Assembly: GCA_029961745.1 (NCBI GenBank)
Contig: CP124680.1
Coordinates: 2,914,001-2,978,000 of the forward strand
Direction of reading: 5' to 3'
From: Nocardioides sp. L-11A
GTDB lineage: Bacteria; Actinomycetota; Actinomycetes; Propionibacteriales; Nocardioidaceae
Length of the DNA: 64,000 nt
Of this stretch, positions 10,523 through 63,417 are shown piece after piece. Each line of letters starts with the position of its first letter. Position 1 is the first letter of the stretch. The position numbers were made by a program, and so were the translations under genes. The notes under the pieces are model-generated. The model was not told the DNA's origin, searched no databases, and saw nothing but the letters and a program-made list of their open reading frames with translations.

Positions 10523-10582
10523 TGCGGTTTGGTCCCAAACCGCAACAATTCCGGCCCCAGACATGGTGTTTGTGCCCAAACG
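10523..10582 (-). repeat. Bipartite palindromic element, copy 1 (trmI/mpa gap)
   Basis: The hairpin box at 10523-10544 has 10-base perfect arms (TGCGGTTTGG) around TC. The second box, GTTTGTGCCCAAAC, ends at 10581. The CCCAAAC cores start at 10534 and 10575, 41 bases apart. It lies between the trmI stop and the mpa ribosome-binding site, and reads in the minus orientation of the consensus used here (copies 3, 5 and 6 define plus). Confidence 0.9.
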
Positions 10583-10640
10583 GCGTTAATCACTTCCCTG
10601 TAACACCGGCCCGAGTAGTGTCGGATCCAGGAGGTGTGCC

Positions 10641-12404
10641 ATGACGAGCATGGGAGAAGGCACGACAGGCGGACACCGTTCCCCGAGTCGTGAGGAGCTC
10701 GAGGACCAGGTGCGTTACCTCGAGGAGGAGATCCACGATCTGCGCCGCCGCCTGGTCGACACCCCGACCGGCGCCGCCCGGAGCCTGGAGTCCCGGCTGG
10801 CCGAGGCCCAGCGGTCCCTCGCCGCGGTGACGGCCCAGAACGAGCGCCTCGCGGGCACCCTGCGCGACGCGCGCGACCAGATCCTCAAGCTCAAGGAGGA
10901 GGTCGACCGGCTGGCCCAGCCGCCGGCCGGCTTCGGGACCTTCCTGCAGCGCAACGAGGATGACACGGTCGACGTCTTCACCGGCGGCCGCAAGCTCCGC
11001 GTGAGCGTCAGCCCCGCCGTCGAGCTCGACGAGCTGCGTCGCGGCCAGGAGGTCATGCTCAACGAGGCGCTCAACGTGGTCGCCGCGTTCGCGTACGAGA
11101 CGGTCGGCGAGGTCGTCATGTTCAAGGAGCTGCTCGCCGACGGCGAGCGGGTCCTGGTGATCGCCAACGCCGACGAGGAGCGCGTGGTCCGCCTCGCCGA
11201 CCCGCTCCTCGGCGAGACCCTGCGCGCCGGCGACTCGCTGCTGCTCGACTCCCGCGCCGGCTACGTCTACGAGCGGGTCCCGAAGTCGGAGGTCGAGGAG
11301 CTGGTCCTCGAGGAGGTCCCCGACATCACCTACGAGACCATCGGCGGTCTGGGCAACCAGATCGAGATGATCCAGGACGCCGTCGAGCTTCCCTACCTCT
11401 ACCCCGAGCTGTTCGCCGAGCACGAGCTCAAGCCGCCCAAGGGGATCCTGCTCTACGGTCCGCCGGGCTGCGGCAAGACCCTCATCGCGAAGGCCGTCGC
11501 CAATTCGCTGGCCAAGAAGGTCGCGGCCAAGACCGGCCAGGAGGGGAAGTCGTACTTCCTCAACATCAAGGGACCCGAGCTCCTCAACAAGTACGTCGGC
11601 GAGACCGAGCGCCACATCCGGCTGGTGTTCCAGCGCGCCCGTGAGAAGGCGAGCACCGGTACGCCGGTCATCGTGTTCTTCGACGAGATGGACTCGCTCT
11701 TCCGCACCCGCGGCTCGGGGGTGTCCTCCGACGTGGAGAACACCATCGTCCCGCAGCTGCTCAGCGAGATCGACGGCGTGGAGCTGCTGGAGAACGTCCT
11801 GGTCATCGGCGCCTCCAACCGCGAGGACATGATCGACCCGGCGATCCTGCGACCCGGGCGACTGGACGTGAAGATCAAGATCGAGCGTCCTGACGCCGAG
11901 TCGGCCCGCGACATCTTCAGCAAGTACCTCACCGCCAATCTGCCGCTGCACGCCGACGACCTCGCCGAGTTCGGCGGCGACCGCGGGGCCACCGTGACCG
12001 GCATGATCCGGGCCGCCGTCGAGCGGATGTACTCCGAGACCGAGGAGAACCGGTTCCTCGAGGTGACCTACGCCAACGGCGACAAGGAAGTCCTGTACTT
12101 CAAGGACTTCAACTCCGGCGCGATGATCCAGAACATCGTCGACAGGTCGAAGAAGATGGCGATCAAGGACTTCCTCGAGCACGAGCAGAAGGGCCTGCGG
12201 GTCTCCCACCTGCTCCAGGCGTGCGTGGACGAGTTCAAGGAGAACGAGGACCTGCCCAACACGACCAACCCCGACGACTGGGCGCGGATCTCCGGCAAGA
12301 AGGGCGAGCGGATCGTGTTCATCCGCACGCTCATCACGGGCAAGCAGGGCACCGAGCCGGGCCGGTCGATCGACACGGTCAACGACACGGGGCAGTACCT
12401 CTGA
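10641..12404 (+). CDS. mpa: Proteasome-activating AAA ATPase Mpa/ARC
   Basis: A 587-residue hexameric unfoldase that captures Pup-tagged proteins and threads them into the 20S proteasome. An N-terminal coiled coil (about residues 12-85, [18 protein letters not shown] and heptads after it) is the Pup-binding region. Two OB-like domains follow, then one AAA module with Walker A GPPGCGKT at 273-280 and Walker B acids at 348-349 ([11 protein letters not shown]). The C-terminus ends in GQYL, the penultimate-Tyr motif that docks Mpa on the proteasome. A strong AGGAGG lies 7-12 bases before the ATG. Downstream is a small peptide gene and then a terminator. Confidence 0.97.
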
Positions 12405-12471
12405 CGCCCGCTTGGCCCCCTCGCTAGGGTGGGCCACGTCCCCCAACGTCCCCTTCCGACAGGAGCCCCCC

Positions 12472-12549
12472 GTGGTCAAGAAGCTCATCATCGTCGCCCT
12501 CGTCGCGCTCGGCGTCACCGCCGCCGTCAAGGTCGCCAAGGGTCGCTGA
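12472..12549 (+). CDS. 25-residue hydrophobic/basic peptide
   Basis: A GTG-initiated reading frame encoding 25 residues: two basic residues, then a hydrophobic run (LIIVALVALGVTAAV) and a basic tail KVAKGR, i.e. one membrane-spanning segment. AGGAG lies 7-11 bases before the GTG, TAGGGT at 12424-12429 could be its promoter, and a strong terminator follows 15 bases after the stop, so the unit looks like a complete tiny gene. It resembles the small DLW-39-type actinobacterial proteins in its N-terminal half but lacks the DLW tail. Function unknown. Confidence 0.6.
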   Translation: MVKKLIIVALVALGVTAAVKVAKGR

Positions 12550-12564
12550 CCTCTTCGCGTCGAC

Positions 12565-12592
12565 GGGCCCCGCACCACTCGGTGCGGGGCCC
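12565..12592. terminator. Strong hairpin terminator
   Basis: Perfect 12-base arms GGGCCCCGCACC with a 4-base loop ACTC, between the small peptide gene and the convergent DUF1206 gene. There is no T-run, as usual for GC-rich actinobacteria; it probably serves both strands. Confidence 0.85.
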
Positions 12593-12598
12593 GTGACG

Positions 12599-13366
12599 TC
12601 ATCTGCCGCGCAGGTACCAGGCCCGGGCCACCTGGTAGGCGCCGTAGCAGGCGAGTCCGACCGCCACGGCGAGGATCACCCAGCGCCCGTACGGCTCGTC
12701 TCGGAACCGCACGATGGCCTGGTCCAGGCCGCCCGACTTGCTCGGGTCGTGGGTGACGCCCGCCCACGCGAACAGCCCGCCGATCACGGCGAAGGCCGCG
12801 CCCCGGCTCAGGTAGCCGGCCCGTGCCAGCACGGTGATCAGAGCACCGGTGGGACCGGTGCGACCGTCCACCTCGAGGTCCTCCCGCCAACGGTCGCCGA
12901 TCCCCTTGAGCGCGCTCGCCGCCCCGACGCCCAGGATGACGACGCCGAGCGCGACGACGATGACGGGGCCGACCGGCAGGCCCAGCAGCGCCACCGTCAC
13001 GCCCTGCGGCGTCCGCCGCCCACCGCCCCCATCACCGAGCGCGGAGCGGACCGCCAGGACGGCGAGGACGCCCAGCACGACGCTGCGTCCACCGCAGGCG
13101 GCGCGGGCGGGCCACTCGTCCGTCCCCCGGACGAAGCGGATCGCCTGTTCGAGCGCCAGGCCCGCCAGGCCGACGGCGACCAGCCACAAGGCGATCCGGC
13201 CGACCGGATCCTGGGCGAGCTGTTGGAACGCGCCCTGGCCCGACGGCGTGCCGTGCCGGTCCCCGAGGGCCAGCGCTACGGCGAGCCACGCGACGAGGCC
13301 GTAGACGATCCCGTAGGCCACCCGCCCGGCGCGGGCCAGCCGGTCGAGCAGCGGGTGATCCTCCAT
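12599..13366 (-). CDS. DUF1206 membrane protein
   Basis: A 255-residue integral membrane protein with about six hydrophobic segments arranged as three similar repeats (RLARAGRVAYGIVYGLVAWL, LPVGPVIVVALGVVILG and LARAGYLSRGAAFAVIGGLF among them). The repeated Gly/Arg-Ala-Gly-Tyr pattern is characteristic of DUF1206 proteins, whose function is unknown. It stands alone on the minus strand between mpa and dop. It converges on the terminator after mpa and is divergent from dop, with the 66-base gap holding the dop promoter. Confidence 0.85.
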   Translation of the reverse strand: MEDHPLLDRLARAGRVAYGIVYGLVAWLAVALALGDRHGTPSGQGAFQQLAQDPVGRIALWLVAVGLAGLALEQAIRFVRGTDEWPARAACGGRSVVLGVLAVLAVRSALGDGGGGRRTPQGVTVALLGLPVGPVIVVALGVVILGVGAASALKGIGDRWREDLEVDGRTGPTGALITVLARAGYLSRGAAFAVIGGLFAWAGVTHDPSKSGGLDQAIVRFRDEPYGRWVILAVAVGLACYGAYQVARAWYLRGR

Positions 13367-13432
13367 GTGTGCGGAGGTACCCCGTCGCGGCGGGGCGATG
13401 CCGCGGCGTCGCCGTACCCGTAGGCTGGACGC

Positions 13433-14941
13433 ATGAGCGTGCGCCGCGTGATGGGCACCGAGGTGGAGTACGGCATCTCGGTCCAGGGCCAGCCGACCGC
13501 CAACCCGATGGTGGCCTCCTCCCAGATCGTCAACGCGTACGCCACGGCCACCGTGCGTGCCCGTCGCGCGCGCTGGGACTTCGAGGAGGAGTCGCCGCTG
13601 CGCGACGCCCGCGGCTTCGACATGTCGCGACAGGTCGCCGACCCGAGCCAGCTCACCGACGAGGACCTGGGCCTCGCCAACGTCATCCTCACCAACGGCG
13701 CCCGGCTCTACGTCGACCACGCCCACCCGGAGTACTCCACGCCCGAGGTCGTCACCCCGCTCGACGTGGTCCGCTGGGACAAGGCGGGGGAGCAGGTCAT
13801 GCTCGACGCCGCCCGGCGCGCGCAGCAGCTGCCCGGCAACCCCGCGATCGTGCTCTACAAGAACAACACCGACAACAAGGGCGCCTCCTACGGCGCGCAC
13901 GAGAACTACCTCATGCGTCGCTCGACCCCCTTCGCCGACATCGTGCGGCACCTGACCCCGTTCTTCGTGAGCCGGCAGGTGTTCTGCGGCGCCGGAAGGG
14001 TCGGCAAGGGCCAGGACGGTCGCGACCACGGGTTCCAGATCAGCCAGCGCGCCGACTTCTTCGAGGTCGAGGTCGGGCTGGAGACGACGCTCAAGCGCCC
14101 GATCATCAACACCCGCGACGAGCCGCACGCCGACCCGGAGAAGTACCGCCGGCTCCACGTCATCATCGGCGACGCCAACCTCGCCGAGATCGCGACGTAC
14201 CTCAAGGTCGGCACGACCTCGCTGGTCCTGGCGATGATCGAGGACCGCTTCATCGGCCGCGACCTGGCCGTCGACACGCCGGTCGCCGCGCTCCGGGCCG
14301 TGTCCCATGACCCGACCCTGCGCCAGACCGTGACGATGGCCGACGGGCGGCGGCTGACCGGCATCCAGCTGCAACTGGAGTACCTCGACCTGGCGAAGAA
14401 ATACGTCGAGGACCGGTACGGCGCCGACGCCGACGCCCAGACCGTCGACGTCCTGGCCCGGTGGGAGGACGTGCTGGCCCGCCTCGAGTCCGACCCGATG
14501 TCGCTGGCCGACCAGCTCGACTGGGTCGCCAAGCTCAAGCTGATCGAGCAGTACCGCTCGCGCGACGCGCTGGCCTGGGACGACGCGAAGCTCCAGCTCA
14601 TCGACTACCAATACTCCGACATCCGGCCGGAGAAGGGCCTCTACCACCGGCTCGTCGGCGCGGGACGCATCCAGCGGCTGCTGTCCGACGACGAGGTGGA
14701 CCGGGCGATGACGAACCCGCCCGAGGAGACCCGCGCGTACTTCCGGGGCCGCTGCCTGGAGAAGTACGCCCCCGACATCGCCGCCGCATCCTGGGACTCG
14801 GTGATCTTCGACCTGCCGGGACGCGAGTCGCTCCAGCGGGTTCCGACGATCGACCCGCTGCGCGGCAGCAGGGCCCACGTCGGCGAGCTGATCGACCGGT
14901 GTGCGACGGCTGACGAACTCGTCCGCGCGCTCAGCCGCTAG
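13433..14941 (+). CDS. dop: Deamidase/depupylase of Pup
   Basis: 502 residues, glutamine-synthetase-like fold. Dop hydrolyses the isopeptide bond between Pup and target lysines and, where Pup ends in Gln, deamidates that Gln. The N-terminal nucleotide/metal motif [12 protein letters not shown] and the shared Dop/PafA signatures are present ([38 protein letters not shown]). The insertion after the first strand ([17 protein letters not shown]) separates Dop from PafA. ATG with TAGGCT 6 bases upstream. Because Pup here already ends in Glu, depupylation is the likely main role. Confidence 0.96.
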
Positions 14942-14958
14942 GTGGATAGGCTGGAGCC

Positions 14959-15156
14959 ATGGCCCAGGAGCAGAAGCAGCCGCGCAAGTCCGACGAGACG
15001 GAGGAGACGACCGAGGTCGCTCCCGAGTCCGACGTGGCCGAGCGCAAGGAGGCCCTCGACGACGACGTCGACGCGATCCTCGATGAGATCGACGACGTCC
15101 TCGAGACCAACGCCGAGGACTTCGTGAAGTCGTTCATCCAGAAGGGCGGCGAGTAG
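14959..15156 (+). CDS. pup: Prokaryotic ubiquitin-like protein Pup
   Basis: 65 residues, acidic and largely disordered with a C-terminal helix (about residues 33-60: LDDDVDAILDEIDDVLETNA) that binds the Mpa coiled coil. The C-terminus reads QKGGE, so the side-chain carboxylate used for ligation is genetically encoded and needs no deamidation, unlike the GGQ form of mycobacteria. It has its own hexamer (TAGGCT, 14947-14952, 6 bases before the ATG) although it lies only 17 bases after dop. prcB follows after 6 bases, so pup and the protease subunits can be co-transcribed. Confidence 0.97.
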   Translation: MAQEQKQPRKSDETEETTEVAPESDVAERKEALDDDVDAILDEIDDVLETNAEDFVKSFIQKGGE

Positions 15157-15162
15157 TCCCCG

Positions 15163-16017
15163 ATGAACGACGCGCGCATCCCGGGTGCCTTCCTGCGCCC
15201 CGGGACCTCCTCCTTCAGCGACTTCCTGGCCGAGAACGCCCCCGACCTGCTGCCGGCGCGCCGCTCGATGCCCGCCGGTACGACGGGCGCCGGGGATCTC
15301 GCTCCCCACGGCACGACCATCGTCGCGGTGACCTTCCCCGGCGGCCTGGTGATGGCCGGTGACCGCCGCGCCACCATGGGCAACGTGATCGCCCAGCGCG
15401 ACATCCAGAAGGTCTTCCCCGCCGACGAGTACTCCGTGGTCGGCATCGCCGGCACCGCGGGCCTCGCCGTCGAGATGGTCCGGCTGTTCCAGGTCGAGCT
15501 CGAGCACTACGAGAAGATCGAGGGCTCGCTGCTCTCGCTCGACGGCAAGGCGAACCGCCTCTCGGCGCTCATCCGGGCCAACCTCGGCATGGCGATGCAG
15601 GGCCTCGCCGTCGTCCCCATGTTCGCCGGCTACGACCTCGACAGCGGCGCCGGTCGGATCTTCGGGTACGACGTCACGGGCGGCCGCCACGAGGAGGCCT
15701 CCTTCTTCACCGTCGGCTCCGGGTCGCTGTTCGCCCGCGGCGCGCTGAAGAAGCTCTACCGCGACGACCTGTCCGCCGACGACGCCGTCCGGGTGTGCCT
15801 CCAGGCTCTCTACGACGCGGCCGACGACGACTCAGCGACCGGCGGCCCCGACCTGACCCGCCGGATCTTCCCGATCGTTTGGGTCGTGACCGCCGACGGC
15901 GCCGTCCAGCTCGACGAGGCCGCCATCGGCGCGCTCGCCGACCAGGTCGTGGCCGCCCGGATGGATCGCCCCGACGGACCGCTCGCACCCCTGCCCGGCG
16001 CGGGGGAGGAGGCCTGA
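15163..16017 (+). CDS. prcB: 20S proteasome beta subunit (catalytic)
   Basis: 284 residues. The propeptide of about 50 residues ends at HG-TT, and Thr51 ([13 protein letters not shown]) becomes the N-terminal nucleophile after self-cleavage. Downstream signatures of active beta subunits include the [12 protein letters not shown] segment (with Asp and Arg near the active site) and the catalytic Lys region [20 protein letters not shown]. It forms the inner rings of the 20S core. The prcA ATG begins 1 base after its stop; GGAGGAGG just before the stop serves as the prcA ribosome-binding site. Confidence 0.97.
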
Positions 16018-16018
16018 G

Positions 16019-16828
16019 ATGAGCACCCCCTTCTACGTCTCGCCCGAGCAGCTGATGAAGGACCGGGCGGACTTCGCCCGCAAGGGCATCGCCCGCGGCC
16101 GGTCCCTCGCGGCGGTGCAGTACGCCGACGGCGTACTCCTCGTCACCGAGAACCCCTCCCAGGCCCTGCACAAGGTCTCCGAGCTCTACGACCGGCTCGC
16201 GTTCGCCGCGGTCGGCCGCTACAACGAGTTCGAGAACCTCCGCATCGCCGGTGTCCGACTCGCCGACATGCGCGGCTACTCCTACGACCGCCGCGATGTG
16301 ACCGGTCGCGGCCTCGCCAACGCCTACGCCCAGACCCTCGGCACCATCTTCTCCTCGGGCGGCGAGAAGCCGTACGAGGTGGAGATCTTCGTCGCCGAGG
16401 TCGGCGCGACGGCCGCCGACGACCAGATCTACCGGCTCACCTACGAGGGACGGGTGGCCGACGAGCACGGCTTCGCGGTCATGGGCGGCGACGCCGACAC
16501 GGTGTCGTCCTACCTCAAGGAGCACTACGCCGACGGCGCCTCCCTCGACGCCGCCCTGCAGGTCGCCGTCGCGGCGCTGGGCCATTCCTCCGACGGTGGA
16601 CAGGTCCAGGACCGGGTCATCCCCGTCGATGACCTGGAGGTCGCCGTCCTCGACCGGACCCGCACCCAGCCCCGGAAGTTCCGCCGCATCCTCCCCGCCC
16701 GCCTCGCCGAGCTGCTCGGTGACCGCGGCCCCGCCGAGACGGCTCCCGAGCAGCACAGCTCCGAGACGCCGGCAGGCGAGTCGTCCGAGTCGGGCGGAGC
16801 CGAGCCTCCCGTCGCCCCACCGCTCTGA
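16019..16828 (+). CDS. prcA: 20S proteasome alpha subunit
   Basis: 269 residues. The alpha-type N-terminal gate region is visible ([20 protein letters not shown], then [20 protein letters not shown]), and there is no N-terminal Thr nucleophile. Alpha rings cap the core and provide the pockets for the Mpa C-terminal tails. The last 40 residues are a low-complexity Glu/Ser/Pro tail, common in actinobacterial PrcA. Repeat copy 2 begins 16 bases after the stop, and the segment that normally leads to pafA is interrupted by a damaged nuclease-like gene. Confidence 0.96.
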
Positions 16829-16843
16829 CCCGACCTGTGGACT

Positions 16844-16911
16844 GTTGTTGGTGCGGTTTGGTCCCAAACCGCACCAACAACGGCCTCAGACATGCAGTTT
16901 GTGCCCAAACG
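16844..16911 (-). repeat. Bipartite palindromic element, copy 2 (after prcA)
   Basis: This copy has the longest hairpin: 18-base perfect arms at 16844-16861 and 16864-16881 (GTTGTTGGTGCGGTTTGG) around TC. The second box GTTTGTGCCCAAAC ends at 16910. The CCCAAAC cores at 16863 and 16904 are 41 bases apart. The outer arms differ from the other copies yet remain complementary, which argues for selection on structure. Confidence 0.9.
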
Positions 16912-17012
16912 GTGGCCTCGCCTCGACCGGTCGGCGACTGTCGCCGGACGGGTATCCACAGCCGAACAAAGGGCACTTGCTCCCGCCTCCGCGTACGTCG
17001 AGTCTGGGCGTC

Positions 17013-17974
17013 ATGCAGATCGGACCGGACGGCGCCATTCGTGGCGAGGTGCGCACATCTGGACATCAACGTGTCGCGCACGGCCTGTACCGGCTGGAGA
17101 CACCGGAGCTTGCGCCGTGGGAGAACTTCCTACGCGACCTGGGCGCGTTGCGTCTCGTGCTTCCCGACGACGCCGTCTTCACGCACGCGACGGCGGCGCG
17201 TCTTCTCGGCTGGCAACTTCCCGCGCTGCCCGAGCAGGTGCCCTACTTCGCTGCGGTCAGGGGAGCGAACCGTCCCGGCGACCCGGCCTGATCTGCTCGC
17301 GACTGGTCCATGACTCTGAGGCACGCATGGTCCACGGTCTGCCGGTGGATGAGCCGGCCGAGATCTTGCTGCGCGCCGCACGTGATCTCGGGAATCTCGA
17401 CCTCGCCATCATGGTCGACTCGGCGGTGCGGCTCGGGCACGTGACGGATAGCGACGTTCAGGAAATCCTCGCGTCCAAGCGACCCGGAGTCCGACGGCTC
17501 CGTGACGTGTGGCTGAGCCGCAACGAAGGCGCAGAATCGGCCGGCGAGACGCTGCTCCACAGGTTCCATCAGGTTCTGGACGTGCCGACCGAGTCACAGG
17601 TCGAGATCGTTGACGACCAGGGGCGTTTCGTCTGTCGAGCCGATCTGCTCGTCGTCGGAACGACGAGCATCCACGAGTACGACGGCGCGGTACACCGCGA
17701 CAAGCACGCTCATCGGCGCGACCTGCGGCGCGAGCGGGCCCTCACGCGCACGCCGTACGTCCGCCGCGGCTACACCCTGGACGACCTCCTCAACCATCCC
17801 GCAGTGCTGATGCATGAGCTCGACCGGCTTCTCGAGCGTCCGCACAAGGCCGGGAGGCTCCGCGCCTGGCGAGCGCTGATCGGTGACTCCCTCTATTCCG
17901 ACACGGGGCGGTCGCGGGTGATGAACCGCTGGTACCGCTCCACCAACCCCGTCGATTGGGCAAGAACCGCATGA
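17013..17974 (+). pseudogene. Frameshifted AbiEi/DUF559-type protein (antitoxin-like N-terminus, nuclease-like C-terminus)
   Basis: Two frames together encode one recognisable protein. The first, from ATG 17013, carries the AbiEi-like N-terminal region (HGLYRLETPELAPWENFLRD, FTHATAARLLGWQLPALPEQ) and stops at 17289-17291. The second frame continues it (RRPGLICSRLVHDSEARMVH, GLPVDEPAEILLRAARDLGN) to a C-terminal DUF559/Vsr-like region (FVCRADLLVVGTTSIHEYDG, then RRDLRRERALT) ending at 17974. Without the shift near 17270-17290 it would be about 320 residues. Real frameshift, recoding and sequencing error cannot be told apart here. It interrupts prcA-pafA, lies between two inverted copies of the palindromic element, and its stop codon is inside copy 3. 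Confidence 0.7.
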
Positions 17975-18011
17975 CTTCGGCCGAGAATGTTGCGGTTTGG
18001 GACCAAACCGC
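17953..18011 (+). repeat. Bipartite palindromic element, copy 3 (overlaps a gene end)
   Basis: The first box is degenerate (GATTGGGCAAGAACCGCATG); the hairpin box at 17992-18011 has 9-base arms GCGGTTTGG around GA. The TTGGG-containing cores start at 17954 and 17995, 41 bases apart. The first box encodes the last residues and the stop codon of the broken nuclease-like gene. Orientation is opposite to copy 2. Confidence 0.88.
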
Positions 18012-18067
18012 GGCCACCGGCCCCGCAACCACCGCCCAGATGCCCAGCTCAGCAGTAATGTGCCTTC

Positions 18068-19429
18068 ATGGACCGTCGGATCTTCGGGATCGAGAACGAG
18101 TACGGCGTGACGTGCACGTTCCGGGGGCAGCGGAGGCTGAGTCCCGACGAGGTGGCGCGCTATCTGTTCCGCAAGGTGGTCAGCTGGGGGCGCAGCAGCA
18201 ACGTGTTCCTGCGCAACGGCGCCCGCCTCTATCTCGATGTCGGCAGCCATCCGGAGTACGCGACGCCGGAGTGTGACGACATCACCGAGCTCGTGACCCA
18301 CGACAAGGCGGGCGAGCGCGTCCTCGAGGGCTTGCTGCTGGACGCCGAGCAGCGGCTCCACGACGAGGGGATCGCCGGCGAGATCTACCTGTTCAAGAAC
18401 AACACCGACTCGGCCGGCAACTCCTACGGCTGCCACGAGAACTACCTGGTCAGCCGGGCGGGGGAGTTCAGTCGGCTGGCCGACGTACTGATCCCGTTCC
18501 TGGTGACCCGGCAGATCATCGTCGGCGCGGGGAAGGTGACCCAGACGCCGCGCGGGACGAGCTACTCCGTCAGCCAGCGGGCCGAGCACATCTGGGAGGG
18601 CGTGAGCAGCGCGACCACCCGCAGCCGGCCGATCATCAACACCCGCGACGAGCCGCATGCCGACGCGGAGAAGTACCGCCGACTCCACGTCATCGTCGGC
18701 GACTCGAACATGAGCGAGACGACGACCATGCTCAAGGTCGCGTCCTGCGACCTGGTGCTGCGGATGATCGAGGAGGGCGTGGTGATGCGCGACCTCACGA
18801 TGGAGAACCCGATCCGGGCCATCCGCGAGATCTCCCACGACGTCACCGGCCAGCGGAAGGTGCGCCTGGCCAACGGTCGGGAGGCCAGCGCACTGGAGAT
18901 TCAGGGGGAGTACCTCGCCAAGGCGCGCGACTTCGTCGATCGGCGGGGGATCTCCACGCCGGTCATCGAGCGGTCCCTCGACTTGTGGGAGCGCGGCCTG
19001 AAGGCGGTCGAGTCCGATGACCTCGGCCTGGTCGATCGCGAGATCGACTGGGTCATCAAGTGGAAGCTGATCGACCGCTACCGCGCCAAGCACGGCCTGC
19101 CGCTGAGCCACCCACGGGTGGCCCAACTCGATCTCGCCTACCACGACATCCACCGCAACCGCGGGCTCTACTACCTGCTGGAGAAGCGCGGGGCCGTCGC
19201 CCGGGTGACGTCCGACCTCAAGATCTTCGAGGCGAAGTCGGTCCCGCCGCAGAACACCCGCGCCCGGCTGCGCGGCGAGTTCATCCGCCGCGCGCAGGAG
19301 CGCCGACGGGACTTCACGGTCGACTGGGTGCACCTCAAGCTCAACGACCAGGCCCAGCGGACAGTGCTCTGCAAGGACCCGTTCCGGGCGTACGACGAGC
19401 GTGTCCAGCGCCTGATCGACGGCATGTGA
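18068..19429 (+). CDS. pafA: Pup-protein ligase
   Basis: 453 residues. PafA uses ATP to phosphorylate the Pup C-terminal Glu and joins it to a substrate lysine. The N-terminal motif [14 protein letters not shown], the strand [40 protein letters not shown] and [19 protein letters not shown] are the shared PafA/Dop active-site elements; the Dop-specific insertion is absent. TAATGT lies 6 bases before the ATG, so it has its own leaderless-type promoter just after repeat copy 3 rather than depending on prcBA read-through. Confidence 0.97.
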
Positions 19430-19463
19430 CACGCGACTACCTGGCAGTCGGTAGGGTTTGCGC

Positions 19464-20564
19464 GTGCTGATGCGCCTGCGACGTCCCTCCCTGCTGTTCC
19501 TGTCGACCCTGCTGCCCGCGAGCCTGGCTCTGGCTGCCTGCGGCGGATCCGACTCCGACGAGGTCAAGGGCCTCGACGCGGTCACGATCAGCGGCCCGGT
19601 CGGCGAGTCCCCGAAGCTGGACTGGAAGGCGGTCATGACCGCCGAGAAGCCCCGGGCCAAGGTCCTCACGGAGGGCGACGGCGCCGAGCTGAAGAAGGAC
19701 GACGTCGTCCGGGTCGAGTTCACCCTCGCCGACGGCTGGACCCACAAGGTCAACTTCGACAGCTACGACGCCACCTCGCTCAGCACCCTGGTCAAGGTCG
19801 GCGCCGAGAAGGAGCCGCAGACACTCACCGATCTGCTCTCCCTGGGCTTCGCCGACGAGATCAAGCCGGGCCAGAAGATCGGCAGCCGGATCGCGGTCAC
19901 GGTCGGCAGCGACGTCGCCTTCGGCGGCTACCTCGGCAGCCAGGCGGCGGGCCTGCTCGCCGGACTCGACATCGGCAACGAGGACGGCCTGTTGTTCGTC
20001 GCCGACATCGTCGGCATCGCCGGCCCCGAGGGCACCGAGGCCGCCGCGCCCGCGTGGGCGCCGACGATCGTCGAGGAGGCCGGACTGCCCGCCAGCCTCG
20101 ACTTCGCCGACACGCCGAAGCCGAGCGCCAAGCTCGAGGTCGCGACACTGACGGAGGGCACCGGCCCGGTCGTCGCCAAGGGGCAGACGATCCTGGTCAG
20201 CTATCTCGGCCAGATCCCGGACGGCGAGAAGCCGTTCGACTCCAGCTACGCCGAGGCCCGCGCCCTCGAGGCCGTGGTCGGCGGCAAGGACGCCTCGGTC
20301 GTCAAGGGCTGGTCCAAGGCCCTGGTCGGGCTGCCCGTCGGCAGCCGCGTCCTGCTCCAGATCCCGCCGAAGCTCGGCTACGGCAAGGAGGGCCAGGGCG
20401 AGGACATCCCCGGCAACTCGACGCTGTACTTCGTCGTCGACATCCTCGACGCTGCCGACACCAAGCCGAAGCCCGAGCCCGCCCCTGAGGCGACGCCCGA
20501 GACGACCCCTGAGGCCCCCGAGTCAGCCCCCGAGCCGAGTACGGATGCCAGCCCCGAAGAGTGA
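19464..20564 (+). CDS. Lipoprotein FKBP-type peptidyl-prolyl isomerase
   Basis: About 366 residues. The N-terminus is a lipoprotein signal with lipobox LAAC (SLALAACGG), so it should be anchored outside the membrane. The second half is a good FKBP domain (GQTILVSYLGQIPDGEKPFD, VVKGWSKALVGLPVGSRVLL, IPPKLGYG); the first half is a diverged FKBP-like copy. The tail is Pro/Glu-rich. GTG start with TAGGGT 6 bases upstream. It is a usual neighbour of pafA in related actinobacteria and overlaps the start of pafB by 20 bases. Confidence 0.9.
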   Translation: MLMRLRRPSLLFLSTLLPASLALAACGGSDSDEVKGLDAVTISGPVGESPKLDWKAVMTAEKPRAKVLTEGDGAELKKDDVVRVEFTLADGWTHKVNFDSYDATSLSTLVKVGAEKEPQTLTDLLSLGFADEIKPGQKIGSRIAVTVGSDVAFGGYLGSQAAGLLAGLDIGNEDGLLFVADIVGIAGPEGTEAAAPAWAPTIVEEAGLPASLDFADTPKPSAKLEVATLTEGTGPVVAKGQTILVSYLGQIPDGEKPFDSSYAEARALEAVVGGKDASVVKGWSKALVGLPVGSRVLLQIPPKLGYGKEGQGEDIPGNSTLYFVVDILDAADTKPKPEPAPEATPETTPEAPESAPEPSTDASPEE

Positions 20565-21507
20565 GCGCCTGCTCAACCTGCTGATCATGCTCCTGGTACA
20601 GCGCAGACCGATCGCCAAGGAGCGGATCCGCGAACTGCTGTACCCGGACTCGCGCGTCGACGCCTTCGAGAAGATGTTCGAGCGCGACAAGGACGAGCTG
20701 CGCAGTCTCGGGGTCCCCGTGGAAGTGGCGACCATCGACCCCTTCTTCGAGGACGAGGTCGGCTACCGGATCCCGCCGGAGGCCTTCGCGCTGCCCGACG
20801 TGGAGCTGACGCCCGAGGAGGCGGCGGTCGTGGGTATCGCCTCGCGGGTCTGGCAGCACGCAACCATGGCACAGGCCACGACGGACGCCGTCCGGAAGCT
20901 GACCGCATCGGGCATCGACGTCGACCTCGACGCCCTGGAGATCGCCCGCCCGCTGCTGACCGCCGAGGAACCTGCCTTCGAACGCTGCTGGATCGCGGTC
21001 TGTGAGCGCAACGCGATCGAGTTCGACTATCAGCGGCCCGACTCCGAGGCGCCCATGCGACGCCGGGTCCAGCCGTGGGGCGTGGTCCGGTATTCCGGAC
21101 GCTGGTATCTCGTCGGCCACGATGCCGACCGGCAGGCCGAGCGGGTCTTCCGGCTGTCTCGGGTCCACGGCGAGGTCAGGCTCGTCGGGCCGCCGGGGGC
21201 CTACGACGTGCCCGCCGAGACCGACGTGCGCGAGATCGCCCGGCGGATGGCGCCGCCGATGCCGAACACCACCGCGGTCCTGCTCGTCCGCGACGGCGCC
21301 GGCCACGGCCTGCGGCGGGCCGCCGAGCAGATCGAGGTCGGCGTACCCGGTCCCGATGACCGTACCGGCTGGGACCGGGTCGTCCTGGTCCGTCCGACCC
21401 AGGGGCTGGCCGACGAGGTGCTCTCGCACGGGCCCGACGTGGTGATCGTCGAGCCCGTCGACGTCCGGGAGCAGGTCGTCGCGCGGCTGGCGCAGGCCGT
21501 CCCGTGA
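20545..21507 (+). CDS. pafB: WYL-domain regulator PafB
   Basis: 320 residues: N-terminal winged helix-turn-helix (about residues 5-60, LLNLLIMLLVQRRPIAKERI), a WYL domain (about 140-210, with VVRYSGRWYLVGHD) and a C-terminal WCX domain. PafB and PafC together activate many DNA-damage genes in mycobacteria by helping sigma-A recognise a -26 element, in response to single-stranded DNA. The start overlaps the FKBP gene end, so it is translationally coupled to it. Repeat copy 4 starts 11 bases after the stop. Confidence 0.93.
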   Translation: MPAPKSERLLNLLIMLLVQRRPIAKERIRELLYPDSRVDAFEKMFERDKDELRSLGVPVEVATIDPFFEDEVGYRIPPEAFALPDVELTPEEAAVVGIASRVWQHATMAQATTDAVRKLTASGIDVDLDALEIARPLLTAEEPAFERCWIAVCERNAIEFDYQRPDSEAPMRRRVQPWGVVRYSGRWYLVGHDADRQAERVFRLSRVHGEVRLVGPPGAYDVPAETDVREIARRMAPPMPNTTAVLLVRDGAGHGLRRAAEQIEVGVPGPDDRTGWDRVVLVRPTQGLADEVLSHGPDVVIVEPVDVREQVVARLAQAVP

Positions 21508-21517
21508 CCGGTGTGAA

Positions 21518-21580
21518 CGCTGCGGTTTGGTCCCAAACCGCAGCGACACGCCGCGACAGACTGCAGTTTGTGCCCAATCG
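21518..21580 (-). repeat. Bipartite palindromic element, copy 4 (between pafB and pafC)
   Basis: Hairpin with 13-base perfect arms CGCTGCGGTTTGG around TC; the second box is GTTTGTGCCCAATC. Cores at 21532 and 21573 are 41 bases apart. It fills most of the gap between two genes whose products act as one heterodimer and that are usually adjacent, overlapping or fused. Confidence 0.9.
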
Positions 21581-21601
21581 AGAGGCGGAAGGAGCGATCT
21601 C

Positions 21602-22609
21602 GTGAGCCGTACGCCGGCCCCCGGGGCCCGCGACCAGGTTGCCCGCCTGCTGACCCTGGTGCCGTTCCTGCACCACCGCGACGGCGTCCGGCTGGAGGAG
21701 GCCGCCGCGCTCCTGGGTACGACGCCCCAGCAGGTCGTCCAGGACCTGAAGGTGCTCTTCATGTGTGGTCTGCCCGGCGGGCTTCCCGACGACCTGATCG
21801 ACGTCGACCTCGATGCCATCGTCACCGAGGCGGGCAGTCCGGTGACCGAGGGCGTGATCCGGATCGAGAATGCCGACTATCTCGCCCGTCCGCTGAGGCT
21901 GAGCGCGACGGAGGCGTCGGCGATGATCGTGGCGCTGCGAATGCTGCGCGACACGGGCTCGGCGGGCGCAGCGCCGGAGCTGGTCGACCGGGTGCTCGCG
22001 AAGCTGGAGGCGGCGGCCGGGGCGCCGCGGGTGGAGATCACGCCGTCGCCGCACGACGCCCAACAGGTGGTGGTGGCGCAGTTGACCGCGCTGGTCGACG
22101 AGGCGGTGGCGTCCGGCAGGCAGCTGCGGCTGCTGTACTTCGTGCCCTCGCGCGACGAGGAGTCCGAACGGGTCGTCGACCCCTACGGCGTGGTCGCGCA
22201 CGGGGTGTTCTCGTACCTCGACGCGTACTGCCACCGGGCGGGCGGCGACCGGCTGTTCCGGCTGGACCGGATCACGAAGGCCGAGCTGCTGCCGAGCGCG
22301 CCGACGACGTCGCCGCGGGCCGCGCGGGACCTGAGCGACGGGCTGTTCACCGACGACGCCGTCCCGGACGCCACGGTCGTGACCCTGCAGCTCGGGCCAC
22401 CGGCGCGGTGGGCGACCGACTACTACCCGGTGCGGGAGGTGCGTGACCTCGACGACGGGTCGGCGGAGGTCGACCTCGTCGTGGTGGACCGCAGGTGGCT
22501 GACCCGACTGCTGCTGCGGCTGGCGCCGCACGCCACGGTGGTCCGCCCCGCGGAGTTCACCGACACGTTCACCGCCCGCGCACAGGAGACCCTCAGCCTG
22601 TACCGGTGA
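21602..22609 (+). CDS. pafC: WYL-domain regulator PafC
   Basis: About 335 residues from the GTG preceded by GGAAGGAG. It has the same architecture as PafB: a helix-turn-helix (about residues 10-60, HHRDGVRLEEAAALLGTTPQ), WYL domain (LRLLYFVPSRDEESERVVDP, VFSYLDAYCHRAGGDRLFRL) and C-terminal WCX part. It is the partner of PafB in the DNA-damage response. The 94-base separation from pafB, occupied by a palindromic element, could uncouple their expression (inference). Confidence 0.93.
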   Translation: MSRTPAPGARDQVARLLTLVPFLHHRDGVRLEEAAALLGTTPQQVVQDLKVLFMCGLPGGLPDDLIDVDLDAIVTEAGSPVTEGVIRIENADYLARPLRLSATEASAMIVALRMLRDTGSAGAAPELVDRVLAKLEAAAGAPRVEITPSPHDAQQVVVAQLTALVDEAVASGRQLRLLYFVPSRDEESERVVDPYGVVAHGVFSYLDAYCHRAGGDRLFRLDRITKAELLPSAPTTSPRAARDLSDGLFTDDAVPDATVVTLQLGPPARWATDYYPVREVRDLDDGSAEVDLVVVDRRWLTRLLLRLAPHATVVRPAEFTDTFTARAQETLSLYR

Positions 22610-51923: not shown

Positions 51924-52017
51924 CACCCGTGATCCGGCGGCCGCCCACGTGCCGGTGAGCCGCACGAGGGGCTTCGGGAGGCGTGCTGCAACTCCCGGGT
52001 GAGTGATCGCCGATAAG

Positions 52018-52030
52018 TGACATTATGTCA
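52018..52030. promoter_or_regulatory. Perfect TGACAT-T-ATGTCA palindrome
   Basis: A 13-base perfect odd palindrome in an A/T-rich patch between the 3' ends of the exported Lys-rich protein gene and the DinB gene. It is not in front of either start, so its role is unclear; it could be an orphan regulator site. Confidence 0.4.
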
Positions 52031-56563: not shown

Positions 56564-56636
56564 GGGCGGAGTCTGTCATCCGCCGGTCGGCCGAAACGGC
56601 ACCGTCCGCTCAGGTCCCTTGCGTACGATGCGCCCC

Positions 56637-57392
56637 ATGCGCTCTCGCCTGCTCGCCGGTGTCCCGGCACTGCTGCTGCTCGCCGCCCTGTCCGCCTGCG
56701 GCGACGACTCGTCGTCCGCCGAGGACCCGGAGACGGGTGGGTCCACGACGCCGTCCGCGGACACGACGACGACCGACAGCACGGCCGACGCCGCGGCCGG
56801 TCAGTGCGACTGGGAGGAGGACGGCGAGGCCGCGCGACCGGTCGACCTGCCGCCCACGGACCCGCAGTACTCCGGCGACGTGCCTGCGGTGCTGAAGACC
56901 TCCATCGGCGAGCTCACGATCACCCTCGACGCGGCCAAGGCACCGTGCACGGTCGAGTCCTTCGCCTCGCTCGCGAAGCAGGGCTACTACGACGACACGT
57001 CCTGCCACCGCCAGGGCAACGACCCCGGCTTCGAGTTCCTGCAGTGCGGCGACCCGTACTTCGACCCGAAGGCGTCCGACGCCGACCCGAAGACCGGCAC
57101 CGGCGGGCCCGGCTACACGATCCCCGACGAGGTCGACGGATCCGAGACGTACCCGGCCGGGACCCTGGCCATGGCCAACACCGGTCAGCCCCACAGCGGT
57201 GGCGGCCAGTTCTTCATCGTCTTCGGCGACTCGCAGTTCCCGCCCAACTACACGGTGTGGGGACACCTCGACGAGGCGTCGGTGAAGAAGCTCCAGGAGG
57301 CGACCGCGAGCGGCAACGACGGCTACTGGGCCCAGAGCGGCGGTGGCCGCCCCAACACCCCGGTGACCTTCGAGAGCATCACGGTCGGCTGA
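56637..57392 (+). CDS. Lipoprotein cyclophilin-type peptidyl-prolyl isomerase
   Basis: 251 residues. Signal with lipobox LSAC (LLLLAALSACGDD), a Thr/Ser/Asp-rich linker, then a cyclophilin domain (AVLKTSIGELTITLDAAKAP, CTVESFASLAKQGYYDDTSC, HRQGNDPGFEFLQCG, GGGQFFIVFGDSQFPPNYTV). The catalytic Arg is in CHRQGN. It probably helps exported proteins fold outside the membrane. TACGAT lies 7 bases before the ATG. The 3' end overlaps the convergent SDR gene by 14 bases. Confidence 0.9.
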   Translation: MRSRLLAGVPALLLLAALSACGDDSSSAEDPETGGSTTPSADTTTTDSTADAAAGQCDWEEDGEAARPVDLPPTDPQYSGDVPAVLKTSIGELTITLDAAKAPCTVESFASLAKQGYYDDTSCHRQGNDPGFEFLQCGDPYFDPKASDADPKTGTGGPGYTIPDEVDGSETYPAGTLAMANTGQPHSGGGQFFIVFGDSQFPPNYTVWGHLDEASVKKLQEATASGNDGYWAQSGGGRPNTPVTFESITVG

Positions 57393-58287
57393 ACCGCTCC
57401 GGGGCGACGGCGCCGGTCAGCCCGACGGACCGCTCCCACAGCGCCCGCGCCAGCAGCTCGTCGTCGGCCTTCCGCGACATCCTGGCCGGCGCGGGCCAGC
57501 CCCACAGCTCGGTCCGCCCGTGCGGGCCGACATAGGTCCCGCCGGGCACGTCCATGGTCGCCGCGTAGACGGTGCAGAGCGCGCCGCGCCAGGCCGGCAT
57601 GCCGACGAGCCTCTGGCCGTAGTGGCCGATCGCCGTCACGACCGGATGGCCCGAGCCGCTGGTGATGCCGGTCGCCGACGCGCCGGGGTGGGCGGCGACG
57701 GCGCGCAGCGTCGCCCCCTCGGCGCGCAGCCTGCGGTCGAGCTCGCGCATGAACAGCAGGTCGGCGAGCTTCGAGTCGCCGTAGGCCTGGAACGGCCGAT
57801 AGGGGCGGCGCTGCCAGCCGAGATCATCGAGGTCGAGCCGCCCCGAGCGGTGCTCGCGGGAGCTCACCACGACCACCCGGTCGGTGAGCACCGGCAGCAC
57901 CAGCCGGGTGAGCAGGAAGTGGCCGAGGTAGTTGGTCGCGAAGTGCATCTCGACGCCCTCCGGCGTCACCGCGTGCGGGACTCCGAGCACGCCGGCGTTG
58001 TTGACCAGGACGTCGACCGGCCGCCCGTCCGCGACCAGGCCGTCGGCGAAGGCGCGCACCGACGCGAGGTCGCTCACGTCCACCTGGCGCACCTCGACCC
58101 GGCCCTTGTCGACACCCGGGACGGTGCGCGCCGCGGCCTCGCCCTTCGCCAGGCTGCGGCAGGCCAGGACGACCTCCGCCCCTCGGGAGCCGAGGATGCG
58201 GGCGGTCTCCAGGCCCAGGCCACCGTTGGAGCCGGTGATGACGAACCGTCTGCCCTGCTGAGGCGGCACCTGGGTCCACGCGCGCAT
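57379..58287 (-). CDS. Short-chain dehydrogenase (WW-oxidoreductase/retinol-dehydrogenase-like)
   Basis: 302 residues. Cofactor motif TGSNGGLGLETARILGSRGA, NNAG near residue 95, Ser in VVVVSSREHRSGRLD and Tyr-x-x-x-Lys as QAYGDSKLADLLFMRELDRR. The CRSLAKGEAA segment suggests NADP(H). Substrate unknown. The neighbouring gene is divergent (54 bases between starts). The very long reading frame through this strand is not a gene. Confidence 0.9.
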   Translation of the reverse strand: MRAWTQVPPQQGRRFVITGSNGGLGLETARILGSRGAEVVLACRSLAKGEAAARTVPGVDKGRVEVRQVDVSDLASVRAFADGLVADGRPVDVLVNNAGVLGVPHAVTPEGVEMHFATNYLGHFLLTRLVLPVLTDRVVVVSSREHRSGRLDLDDLGWQRRPYRPFQAYGDSKLADLLFMRELDRRLRAEGATLRAVAAHPGASATGITSGSGHPVVTAIGHYGQRLVGMPAWRGALCTVYAATMDVPGGTYVGPHGRTELWGWPAPARMSRKADDELLARALWERSVGLTGAVAPERFSRP

Positions 58288-58341
58288 GGCCCGAACCCTC
58301 CCACATCCGCAGCCGTCCGGCGTCCGTTCTAGGCTGACTGG

Positions 58342-60767
<2,426 letters not shown>

Positions 60768-60771
<4 letters not shown>

Positions 60772-61589
60772 CCGGGGTGAAGGCGCGCCGTCCGGGTCCC
60801 ACGACCCGCCTTCGGGTCGAGGAGCATCGCGGCGACGACGTCCGCCGGCACGAGGACCGGGTGCTGACCGAGGAGCCGCTGGAGATCCGGCTGGCCTGGC
60901 CGGGCGCCCCGGCCCGGCGGGTCTGGACGACCCTGCGCACGCCGGGTCACGACTTCGAGCTGGCTGCCGGGTGGGTGCACCACGAGGGCCTCGGCCGGGC
61001 CACCGGCGTCGCCTACTGCACCGACGTGGAGCTGCGCCCGGAGCAGAAGTTCAACGTCGTGACCGTGACCCTGGACGCCGTACCCGCCCGGGTGCCGAGA
61101 CAACTCGACGCGCTCAGCGCCGGCTCGGCCGCCTGCGGGGTGTGCGGCTCCGACGAGGTCGCCGAGGTGCTGGCCCGGCGGGCGACGGCACCGTGGGCCG
61201 GGCCACTCCCCTCCCCCGACCTGGTCCGCCGCCTGCCCGGCCGGATGCGGCCCCGGCAGGAGCTGTTCGACCGCACCGGCGGCGCCCACGCGGCGGGCCT
61301 GTTCGCCGACGACGGCACCCTGCTCGCCGTCCGGGAGGACGTCGGGCGGCACAACGCCGTCGACAAGGTCGTCGGCGCCCGGCTCCTCGCCGGCGCGCCG
61401 TCGGCGGCCGCGGCGCTGGTCGTGAGCGGCCGCGCCGGCTTCGAGCTGGTGCAGAAGGCCGTCGCCAGCGGCGTCGGCGTCCTCGTCGCCGTCGGCGCCC
61501 CCACGGGACTGTCCGTCCGACTGGCCGAGGCCGGCGGACTGGCGCTCTACGGCTGGACCAAGGACGACCGGACCGTCCGGTACGCCTGA
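60768..61589 (+). CDS. fdhD: Formate dehydrogenase accessory sulfurtransferase FdhD
   Basis: 273 residues. FdhD transfers sulphur from IscS to the bis-MGD molybdenum cofactor of formate dehydrogenase. The Cys pair CGVC (123-126, in SAACGVCGSDEV) and the C-terminal REDVGRHNAVDKVVGARLL and VVSGRAGFELVQKAV motifs are characteristic. No formate dehydrogenase gene is in the window. It starts at a GTG overlapping the pepN stop. Confidence 0.93.
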
Positions 61590-61639
61590 ATCGGCGCGCC
61601 CCGCGACGTTCTGTCGGGCCCTCCTGTTTGACTGCTCCC

Positions 61640-63079
61640 ATGGCCCTCCTCCTCGCCCTCCTCGTCGGTCTCCTGCTCGGTGCAGGGGCCGGCTGGCTGG
61701 TGCGCCAGGCCACCCTCCCCGCCACCCCCGAGGTCGCGCCGGAGGAGGCCCCCGAGGTCGTCGCCGCCCGCCACGAGGCGGTCCTGGCTGGGCTGCGCGC
61801 CGAGCACGAGACCGCGCTCGCCGAGCTGCGTCACGAGGTGCAGCGGGTCCAGCTGCAGGGCGAGTCCCGCGCCGGCGCGGTCCGTGCCGAGGAGGCCGCC
61901 GCCCGCGCCGCCGTGCAGGCCGAGCTGACCGGCGCGCTCGCGACGGTCGAGGAGCTGCGCGACGCCGTCGACGACGCCCGGGCCCGCTACCGCACCCTCG
62001 TCGAGCAGCAGCGCCAGGCCCAGCAGGAGCGGGAGCGCGGCGAGACCGGCCAGACCCAGGTGCTCAAGACGCTCACCCCGGTCGTCGAGCACCTGCGCGC
62101 CATGCAGCGCAAGGTCGACGACCTCGAGAAGGCCCGCGTCCAGCAGCACACCGAGCTGGCGACCCAGATCAAGCACACCCAGCGCTCGGTCGAGGACTCC
62201 CGCAAGGCCGCCGACACCCTCGCCTCGGTGCTCAAGAACAACGCCGTCCGGGGTGCATGGGGCGAGACCCAGCTGCGCACGCTGGTCGAGACCGCGGGAC
62301 TGCTCAACCGGGTCGACTTCGAGCTGCAGCACTCCGTCGAGGCCGACTCCGGCAGCCGCCGGCCCGACATGGTCATCAACCTCCCCGGCGGCAAGCAGAT
62401 GGCGATCGACGCCAAGGTGCCCTACAACGCGTTCATGGACGCCCAGCGCGAGGGCCTCGAGCCCGAGACCCGGCAGCGACTGCTCGACGATCACGCCCGC
62501 AAGGTCCGCGGCCACGTCGACACCCTCGCCCGCAAGGGGTACTGGACCGGCCTCGCGGTCAGCCCGGAGTTCACCGTCGCGTTCATCCCCAACGAGCAGC
62601 TCCTCAACGCCGCCCTCGAGGTCGACCCGTCGCTGATGGAGCACGCCTTCGGCAACGGCATCGTCCTGGCGACCCCGACGAACCTCTGGAGCATGCTCAA
62701 GACCGTCGCCTTCACCTGGAAGCAGGAGGCCCTCACCGAGGACGCCCAGGTCCTCTTCGAGCTCGGTCAGGTCCTCTACCGCCGGATCCTCAAGCTCTCC
62801 GAGCACGTCGACAAGCTCGGCCGCTCGCTGCAGCGCAGCGTCAAGGACTACAACGCCTTCACCGGCTCCCTCGAGCGCTCGGTCCTGCCCGCCGCCCGCA
62901 AGCTCAACGCCGCCGACCCGGTCGCCGACATCCCCGTGCCCAAGGAGATCGAGGAGGCACCCAAGGCGCTCGCCTCCAGCGAGTTCGGCGCGCTCGCCGA
63001 CCTCGACCGCGACGAGCTCACCTTCGACTTCGACCTCCCGGTCGACGCGGAGATCGTGGACGACACCCGAGCAGGCTGA
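61640..63079 (+). CDS. rmuC: DNA recombination protein RmuC
   Basis: 479 residues. An N-terminal membrane anchor (LLLALLVGLLLGAGAGWLVR) precedes a long coiled coil (about residues 40-190) and a C-terminal nuclease-like RmuC domain (NNAVRGAWGETQLRTLVETA, MVINLPGGKQMAIDAKVPYN, GYWTGLAVSPEFTVAFIPNE). RmuC limits inversions at short inverted repeats, which is notable given the palindromic elements that follow it. No strong ribosome-binding site was seen before the ATG. Confidence 0.9.
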   Translation: MALLLALLVGLLLGAGAGWLVRQATLPATPEVAPEEAPEVVAARHEAVLAGLRAEHETALAELRHEVQRVQLQGESRAGAVRAEEAAARAAVQAELTGALATVEELRDAVDDARARYRTLVEQQRQAQQERERGETGQTQVLKTLTPVVEHLRAMQRKVDDLEKARVQQHTELATQIKHTQRSVEDSRKAADTLASVLKNNAVRGAWGETQLRTLVETAGLLNRVDFELQHSVEADSGSRRPDMVINLPGGKQMAIDAKVPYNAFMDAQREGLEPETRQRLLDDHARKVRGHVDTLARKGYWTGLAVSPEFTVAFIPNEQLLNAALEVDPSLMEHAFGNGIVLATPTNLWSMLKTVAFTWKQEALTEDAQVLFELGQVLYRRILKLSEHVDKLGRSLQRSVKDYNAFTGSLERSVLPAARKLNAADPVADIPVPKEIEEAPKALASSEFGALADLDRDELTFDFDLPVDAEIVDDTRAG

Positions 63080-63186
63080 GCCCCGGCGGACTGAGCCCCG
63101 GGCCGGGCAATGCGGTCCGCCCCTGCTGGGGTGCGGCCGGTCGTGTTCATGACGGGTGAATCGACGGCGGGCTGTCACTGGTCTCG

Positions 63187-63246
63187 GGATTGGGCACAAA
63201 CCGCAGGGAATTGCCCCGAATTGCTGCGGTTTGGGACCAAACCGCA
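63187..63246 (+). repeat. Bipartite palindromic element, copy 5 (after rmuC)
   Basis: First box GATTGGGCACAAACCGCA and hairpin box with 10-base arms TGCGGTTTGG around GA. The cores at 63188 and 63229 are 41 bases apart. Similarity to copy 6 extends about 14 bases past the hairpin (ACCACCGCGC), so copies 5 and 6 look like a recent local duplication. Confidence 0.9.
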
Positions 63247-63351
63247 ACGACCACCGCGCTCGGCATCCTGGCGACGAGCCGGCTCCTCCTCGACGCCGAC
63301 GATCGTCACCGGCACCACCCAGACGGCAGTCTTGCCCTCACAGACCCACCG
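63247..63351. other. Spacer between palindromic elements 5 and 6
   Basis: The spacer has no start-to-stop gene. On the minus strand one frame reads a plausible protein-like fragment (WVCEGKTAVWVVPVTIVGVE, then EEPARRQDAERG) that runs into both repeats; it could be a remnant of a coding end carried along with the repeat. Bases 63080-63186, before copy 5, show nothing recognisable. Confidence 0.4.
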
Positions 63352-63417
63352 CGTTTGGGCACAAACCGCATGGAATTGCCCCGAAATGTTGCGGTTTGGG
63401 ACCAAACCGCAACAACC
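63352..63417 (+). repeat. Bipartite palindromic element, copy 6 (before the thioesterase stop)
   Basis: First box GTTTGGGCACAAACCGCA and hairpin arms GTTGCGGTTTGG around GA (12 bases, the best hairpin among the plus-oriented copies). Cores at 63353 and 63394 are 41 bases apart. It ends 9 bases before the stop codon of the leftward thioesterase gene, and copies 5-6 similarity runs up to that stop. Confidence 0.9.

Follow-up and report, generated by a model that had tools for sequence, protein, structure and literature searches.

A dispersed bipartite palindrome of Nocardioides as the probable inverted end of a REPtron-like unit around a predicted Vsr/EDxHD-type nuclease gene

Among described systems the REPtrons come closest to the element considered here. 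In one published outline of them, short, often paired and mostly extragenic palindromes (repetitive extragenic palindromes, REPs, and their paired form, REPINs) accompany a resident gene for a REP-associated tyrosine transposase (RAYT) that is itself flanked by copies (PMC3733652). REPINs are counted, in a second source, among the commonest bacterial repeat families, and in E. coli are commoner where a RAYT is present (PMC8049555). The first source reports no obvious correlation between REPs and RAYTs across species, a CGTC class of REPs that apparently has no dedicated transposase, and the TIRtrons, tyrosine-transposase genes flanked by long terminal inverted repeats (TIRs), some of which form repeat families (PMC3733652). 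The element described here consists of two related palindromic boxes, A and B, and occurs six times in a stretch of 64,000 nucleotides, hereafter the window, of Nocardioides sp. L-11A (assembly GCA_029961745.1, contig CP124680.1, positions 2,914,001 to 2,978,000). It is probably the terminal inverted repeat of a REPtron-like unit, B-A-nuclease gene-A-B, and copying driven by the nuclease, mainly near the donor, would have filled the replication terminus with it. A literature search, judged for most papers by titles and the openings of abstracts, returned no description of this element.

All six copies listed in an earlier note on this DNA were recovered, three on each strand and each with a step of exactly 41 bp from B to A, and the boxes are related, as the note had seen, box A being a degenerate direct repeat of box B (TGCGGTTTGGTCCCAAACCG / TGCRGTYTNTGCCCAATCG). 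Placed as 20-mers in 1-based window coordinates and read in the B-to-A orientation, the copies and the features that matter to them are as follows.

Element 1, 10524..10584, plus strand: box B 10524-10543, box A 10565-10584; flanked by a gene for a TrmI-like methyltransferase and that for the proteasomal ATPase.
Element 2, 16845..16913, plus strand: box B 16853-16872, box A 16894-16913; forms the inverted end of the gene unit on the left and follows a gene for a proteasome subunit, by its position prcA.
Resident-gene open frame, 16892..17974, plus strand: homologous part 17007-17938.
Element 3, 17951..18011, minus strand: box A 17951-17970, box B 17992-18011; forms the inverted end of the unit on the right.
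Element 4, 21522..21582, plus strand: box B 21522-21541, box A 21563-21582; between two genes with WYL domains (PafB/PafC-type).
dif site, 52007..52030, plus strand: one mismatch to the pattern; context for the clustering, outside the element.
Element 5, 63185..63245, minus strand: box A 63185-63204, box B 63226-63245; flanked by a gene of the RmuC family and one convergent with it.
Element 6, 63350..63410, minus strand: box A 63350-63369, box B 63391-63410; 165 bp from element 5.

The source genome (5,684,321 bp, one contig) contains the palindrome at 37 places with up to three mismatches, and a chance origin is excluded because the reversed-pattern control returned none. Scarcity beyond the six copies and variable spacing, two of the outcomes that the earlier note had named as damaging to its proposal, were not encountered, as 36 of the 37 places have box A at exactly +41. 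Read from B to A, the consensus of these 36 copies is GTTGCGGTTTGGTCCCAAACCGCAACAATTCGGGCC......TGCGGTTTGTGCCCAATCG. A matrix built from the copies locates 20 bipartite elements at 58-75 bits in 338 kb around the window and none in 400 kb sampled elsewhere or in one shuffled control; since it was trained on these very copies its matches are expected, and the actual finding is the empty range between 15 and 58 bits, that is, no half-decayed copies in the 338 kb. A de novo search for palindromicity alone did not recover the 41-bp paired palindromes, which motif scoring did. The longer outer arms noted earlier for copies 2 and 4 are no feature of the family, as outer pairing over the 36 copies stays at or near shuffled levels (P 0.04-0.05 at two of 12 offsets, higher at the rest). 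A conserved GGGCC lies halfway between the boxes, about 20 bp from each centre, as if it were a third contact two helical turns from each. Several of the genome's own copies (at 2288886, 2747267, 2747411, 2760261, 2832302, 2904495 and others) have a TGGTCNGACCA palindrome just outside box A or B, which in some of them contains the stop codon of the neighbouring gene. We take this palindrome to resemble a FadR-type operator.

Two of the six copies are inverted repeats around a single gene, in the order B-A-gene-A-B (16853-18011). Neither a screen of the gene content around dif, which was made first, nor promoter-type sites as a lead to a regulator gave a candidate, and the gene was discovered by comparing G111 with G146, where one gene between prcA and pafA is missing together with the element before it. 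The gene has about 320 codons and is located between prcA and pafA or nearby. It was found in 20 element-bearing genomes and adjoins an element in every one: G000; AVDCRST_MAG06 (L043); Pimelobacter simplex 3E (L061 = L319, G250); TF02-7 (L068); Root190 (L070); Root240 (L078, G006); N. immobilis (L092); PD653-B2 (L128); N. szechwanensis (L148); and G131, G029, G182, G111, G276, G271, G093, G207, G108, G135 and G177. Elements stand on both sides in 18 of the 20 (up to two mismatches), the upstream copy of G135 being weaker and G111 having an element on one side only, and the flanking copies are mostly spelled as in their own genome. The gene is present in all 18 element-bearing genomes in which both prcA and pafA are covered, and is absent from the prcA-pafA junction of all ten element-free genomes checked there (G146, G189, G187, G079, G166, G254, G193, G213, G170 and G227); G233 and G198 were excluded from these counts as their stretches do not span the junction. 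Genomes that lack the gene at its usual locus have no solo copies either.

In 14 of 19 loci the right-hand box A also closes the reading frame, as GAT TGG GCA ... ACN GCA TGA or similar (D W A x T A, then the stop); the box is degenerate in L148 and deviates in L068, G111 and G135, and the G108 locus was not read. In the window's gene the final codons (V D W A R T A) and the stop make up box A of element 3. The predicted ends of the database homologues P0074, P0075 and P0116 continue into translated palindrome-like sequence (VPNR, RFVTKPQ and RFGTKPQ), which suggests that the same elements flank the gene in further genomes.

The gene product is modelled as an N-terminal part like AbiEi and Rv2827c joined to a domain like Vsr and the EDxHD homing endonucleases, the putative catalytic domain having a predicted Vsr-like fold. 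D212, E223, D225, H229 and D238, invariant in 40 of 40 homologues, are candidate active-site residues, whose catalytic role we assume by analogy. Searches of the PDB with the sequence gave nothing useful, and DUF559 (PF04480) stays below its curated Pfam cut-off (17.7 against 20.6 bits in the G029 protein, no match in two others), with five of the 40 members matching at E up to 0.1.

Like a REPtron, the Nocardioides system has short, dispersed, mostly extragenic palindromes and a resident gene flanked by them. It differs in its enzyme, which is modelled as a Vsr/EDxHD-type nuclease, and the RAYT that had been suggested as a search target was not found: the Y1_Tnp domain (PF01797) is present in none of 20 genomes, the control being positive in five of 14, and no Y1/HUH transposase was seen in the 20. 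It differs further in that the 36-copy consensus contains no GTAG or CGTC tag, box A repeats box B directly at a constant step of 41 bp, and the copies cluster around the gene. The REP-like mobile palindrome, one of the options in the earlier note, thus comes close in kind, given the dispersed family, its presence or absence between species and the flanked resident gene, but the kind of enzyme does not agree. The TIRtrons resemble the Nocardioides system in having a gene between inverted repeats that form a dispersed family of their own; their enzyme is of another class. EDxHD/Vsr-fold homing endonucleases such as I-Bth0305I differ in that no intron or intein host was seen for the Nocardioides protein, which is joined to an AbiEi-like part and flanked by its own palindromes, while AbiEi antitoxins and Rv2827c differ in that here the AbiEi-like part is fused to a nuclease-like domain.

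A degenerate pattern matches 81 of 215 Nocardioides genomes, 61 of them with at least six sites and the other 20 with one to four (counted by hand), and among 391 genomes drawn from the order none beyond the genus has more than two matches. The exact palindrome was located in at least 120 stretches of public genomes; among the matches listed, 117 are from Nocardioides or Pimelobacter and three are single stretches from Beijerinckia, Pelomonas and a Rhodobacteraceae metagenome-assembled genome (MAG). No matches occur among viral contigs, plasmids or phages, and the element-free genomes have no other prominent repeat near dif. Arms and centre are spelled differently from species to species, whereas the 41-bp step recurs: among spacings below 150 bp in ten genomes, the source genome included, 39 of 52 are exactly 41, spread over nine of the ten, the step is also seen in G006 at a looser score, and G061 and G238 have arrays with a 41-bp period. 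On a tree of the MCC-beta gene, which covers 26 of 31 genomes (five were dropped as the gene was not extracted), the element label needs seven changes, at least three of them forced by starred branches, and 77 of 500 shuffles do equally well; the label is therefore patchy on this tree.

The window spans the replication terminus, and the proteasome-pafBC block lies about 30-45 kb from dif on one side. Sites like dif were matched in 134 of 147 genomes, and parB lies 0.477 of the genome from dif in the source genome; over six closed genomes the distance is 0.46-0.50 of the chromosome. Of the element loci in these six, 56-83% belong to the tenth of the chromosome that surrounds dif (p 5e-5 to 1e-10), as do 12 of the 13 loci listed in a seventh. 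Such clustering is not a rule for repeats at large, because a different dispersed repeat of G131 has none of its 29 loci within 176 kb of dif and one inside the tenth. This second repeat, unrelated to the element, was recognised in G131 from 48 matches of CGCTCGACCACCGG. The distribution of the element recalls matS/MatP, whose palindromic sites are likewise dense in the terminus, and a comparable system, in which a protein (perhaps the resident one, tamed) organises or pairs the terminus and selection keeps sites near dif, would also account for the absence of half-decayed copies and for the conservation of both boxes at orthologous sites where the flanks turn over.

The position of the gene may account for the clustering in another way. 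In seven genomes it lies 31-50 kb from dif, and of the 64 loci within 5% of the genome from gene or dif 43 are nearer the gene (median distance 27 kb, against 53 kb to dif; Wilcoxon p 0.046); this test omits the two loci flanking the gene, and G271, G108 and G131 contribute 18 of 25, 10 of 18 and 26 of 28 palindromes. Within 5% of the gene there are 32 loci on either side of it, so that the centre of the near copies is, narrowly, the gene and not dif. Most simply, the clustering is thus a by-product of where the gene sits, and gene position displaces a matS-like function as its account. Several further observations speak against such a function: among the sites listed, those of G093 are scattered over the genome, although its gene is flanked as usual; copies occur inside coding genes far from the terminus; 154 of the 215 Nocardioides genomes have fewer than six matches; MatP (PF06303) is present in none of 20 genomes, the control being positive in E. 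coli; and, in contrast to matS, the site is bipartite and its cluster centred on a resident gene. Several of the listed sites of G111 are likewise far from dif. A matS-like system is therefore considered unlikely. An extra ParB/Noc paralogue was rejected as a candidate, as all 30 genomes have one strong ParB_N copy and the additional weak matches do not track the elements.

A position near the terminus and a bipartite site would also befit a polar replication fork trap of the Tus/Ter or RTP type, and G233 does lean polar (left of dif 4 plus and 0 minus, right 4 plus and 10 minus). Orientation is, however, mixed on both sides of dif in G000 (left 15 plus and 8 minus, right 8 plus and 6 minus) and in G276 (10 and 12, 12 and 7), and on the right in G182 (left 4 and 0, right 11 and 9), which makes a fork trap scarcely credible.

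Placement at gene 3' ends, claimed earlier for all six copies, holds except in one detail, the distance of copy 5 from its stop codon. Copies 1, 2 and 4 start 33, 24 and 14 bp past stop codons, copy 3 spans a stop codon and a gap of 16 bp separates the end of copy 6 from a convergent stop, whereas copy 5 lies 105 bp beyond the stop of the Pfam-supported RmuC frame. The 3' position, together with a strong single-strand hairpin in some copies (z -6.3, -4.6, -3.9 and -2.9; -1.3 and -1.0 in the other two), might indicate ordinary transcription terminators or RNA 3'-end hairpins, and the earlier note had considered a combined role in termination. This part of it found no backing, as none of the four copies in window positions 10001-22000 coincides with a terminator-like site, the window has no Rfam match and the outer arms show no convincing covariation. 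Terminators would, moreover, leave the fixed 41-bp step, the gene and the clustering unexplained, and are very improbable.

On the examined loci, a crude gene caller placed 150 site clusters between genes, 43 within open reading frames and 12 in gaps above 1200 bp. Of the 150 intergenic clusters only six lie in divergent gaps, compared with 185 of 693 gaps overall, by the same crude calls and with overlapping loci counted repeatedly. This avoidance of divergent promoters argues against operators of a dispersed regulon, in which the protein would act as a repressor or an antitoxin-like regulator by binding to the copies at many genes. Palindromes on one face of the DNA, the AbiEi-like N-terminal part and the copies adjoining the gene would suit a regulon, but the conserved Vsr-like active site would be superfluous in it, and such an arrangement is regarded as improbable. 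The paired binding site on one DNA face that had been proposed earlier is a plausible way for the resident protein to read the element.

Across 42 pairs of orthologous sites the flanks share 44% identity without gaps, whereas box A is 80% identical and several core positions reach at least 95%; 40 of the 42 retain box A at +41 with a score of at least 15 of 19, and as the pairs were located through box B the identity of that box is no test. Either selection or ongoing rewriting by the nuclease would be consistent with a box A that persists at shared sites between changing flanks. Turnover is seen as well. A copy lies in frame within the MCC-beta linker of G000, G177 and G276 and not in other relatives with a readable linker (31 rows compared, four of them not read), and also in SLBN-35, TF02-7 and a MAG, and one of the genome's own sites is absent from SLBN-35. 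The linkers of several species carry either this element or the second repeat in frame, for which reason the linker looks like a tolerant landing place. At gene junctions shared with deep relatives a site is present in ten and lacking in eight, with none of five in the element-free G146 (crude gene calls). When G111, with 40 sites, is aligned with G146, its element-free sister, the elements are missing from the latter, which retains 20-51 bp at eight of the 12 junctions read and 77, 88, 270 and 2332 bp at the remaining four; these junctions hold replaced sequence rather than clean empty sites. The G111 copies at L281 7643-7704 and L286 5498 replace sequence nearly length-neutrally relative to G146, apparently within coding genes.

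The architecture, the distribution, the joint absence of copies and gene at its locus, the conservation and the predicted fold are brought together most readily by a nuclease-driven REPtron-like unit, for which we infer binding, cutting, copying and short-range spread. Most likely a dimer of the nuclease would read each palindrome, boxes A and B lying four helical turns apart, and would nick or cut there. Repair of the break would then copy the element to new places, preferably in the neighbourhood of the donor gene, and because of this preference solo A-B copies, the non-autonomous offspring of the unit, would come to fill the terminus. Copies that damage genes would be lost, so that the survivors are found at gene 3' ends.

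Several points weigh against this reading. Foldseek alone gives no match under E 0.001, and the NCBIfam model of the esterase LipQ matches nine of the 40 members (best E 1.7e-5). The junctions of G111 and G146, inspected by eye, show no target-site duplication or clean insertion boundary, and some copies swap out sequence with almost no net insertion. The gene is only weakly preferred to dif, gene and dif are no more than 31-50 kb apart, and in G276 and G271 the medians over all loci are nearer dif. An element-free genome is one with no match to the pattern used, which could miss other spellings, and absence of the gene is known at the prcA-pafA locus only, not genome-wide. The loci are also a non-random sample, as six named ones come from the exact-palindrome scan, with L068 and L078 in addition, and G276, G271, G093, G250 and G207 were chosen for a pair of sites about 1.1 kb apart; the window's own locus, those from the exact-palindrome scan, and G131, G029, G182 and G111 were obtained before the gene hypothesis. 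Finally, the window's gene needs two frames to match its relatives and looks frameshifted, yet 37 copies persist. Its C-terminal half retains ESAGET..RADL..HEYDG..HRD..D..R; this copy of the gene may be inactive, and the system in the source genome has possibly been silenced recently.

It is about an even call whether the system represents a new kind of bacterial REP-like population, kept by a homing-endonuclease-like protein of AbiEi-Vsr/EDxHD type and not by a tyrosine transposase, in which the element would be both the end of the unit and the coding end of the nuclease gene, and copies would be sown mainly near the donor, so that short-range homing decorates the terminus in much of the genus. 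The protein and its 61-bp element would form a clear testable pair, and gain, loss and cost can be measured directly by comparing relatives that have the system with relatives that lack it. If the proposal is true, REP-like populations can run on a second, unrelated enzyme chemistry.

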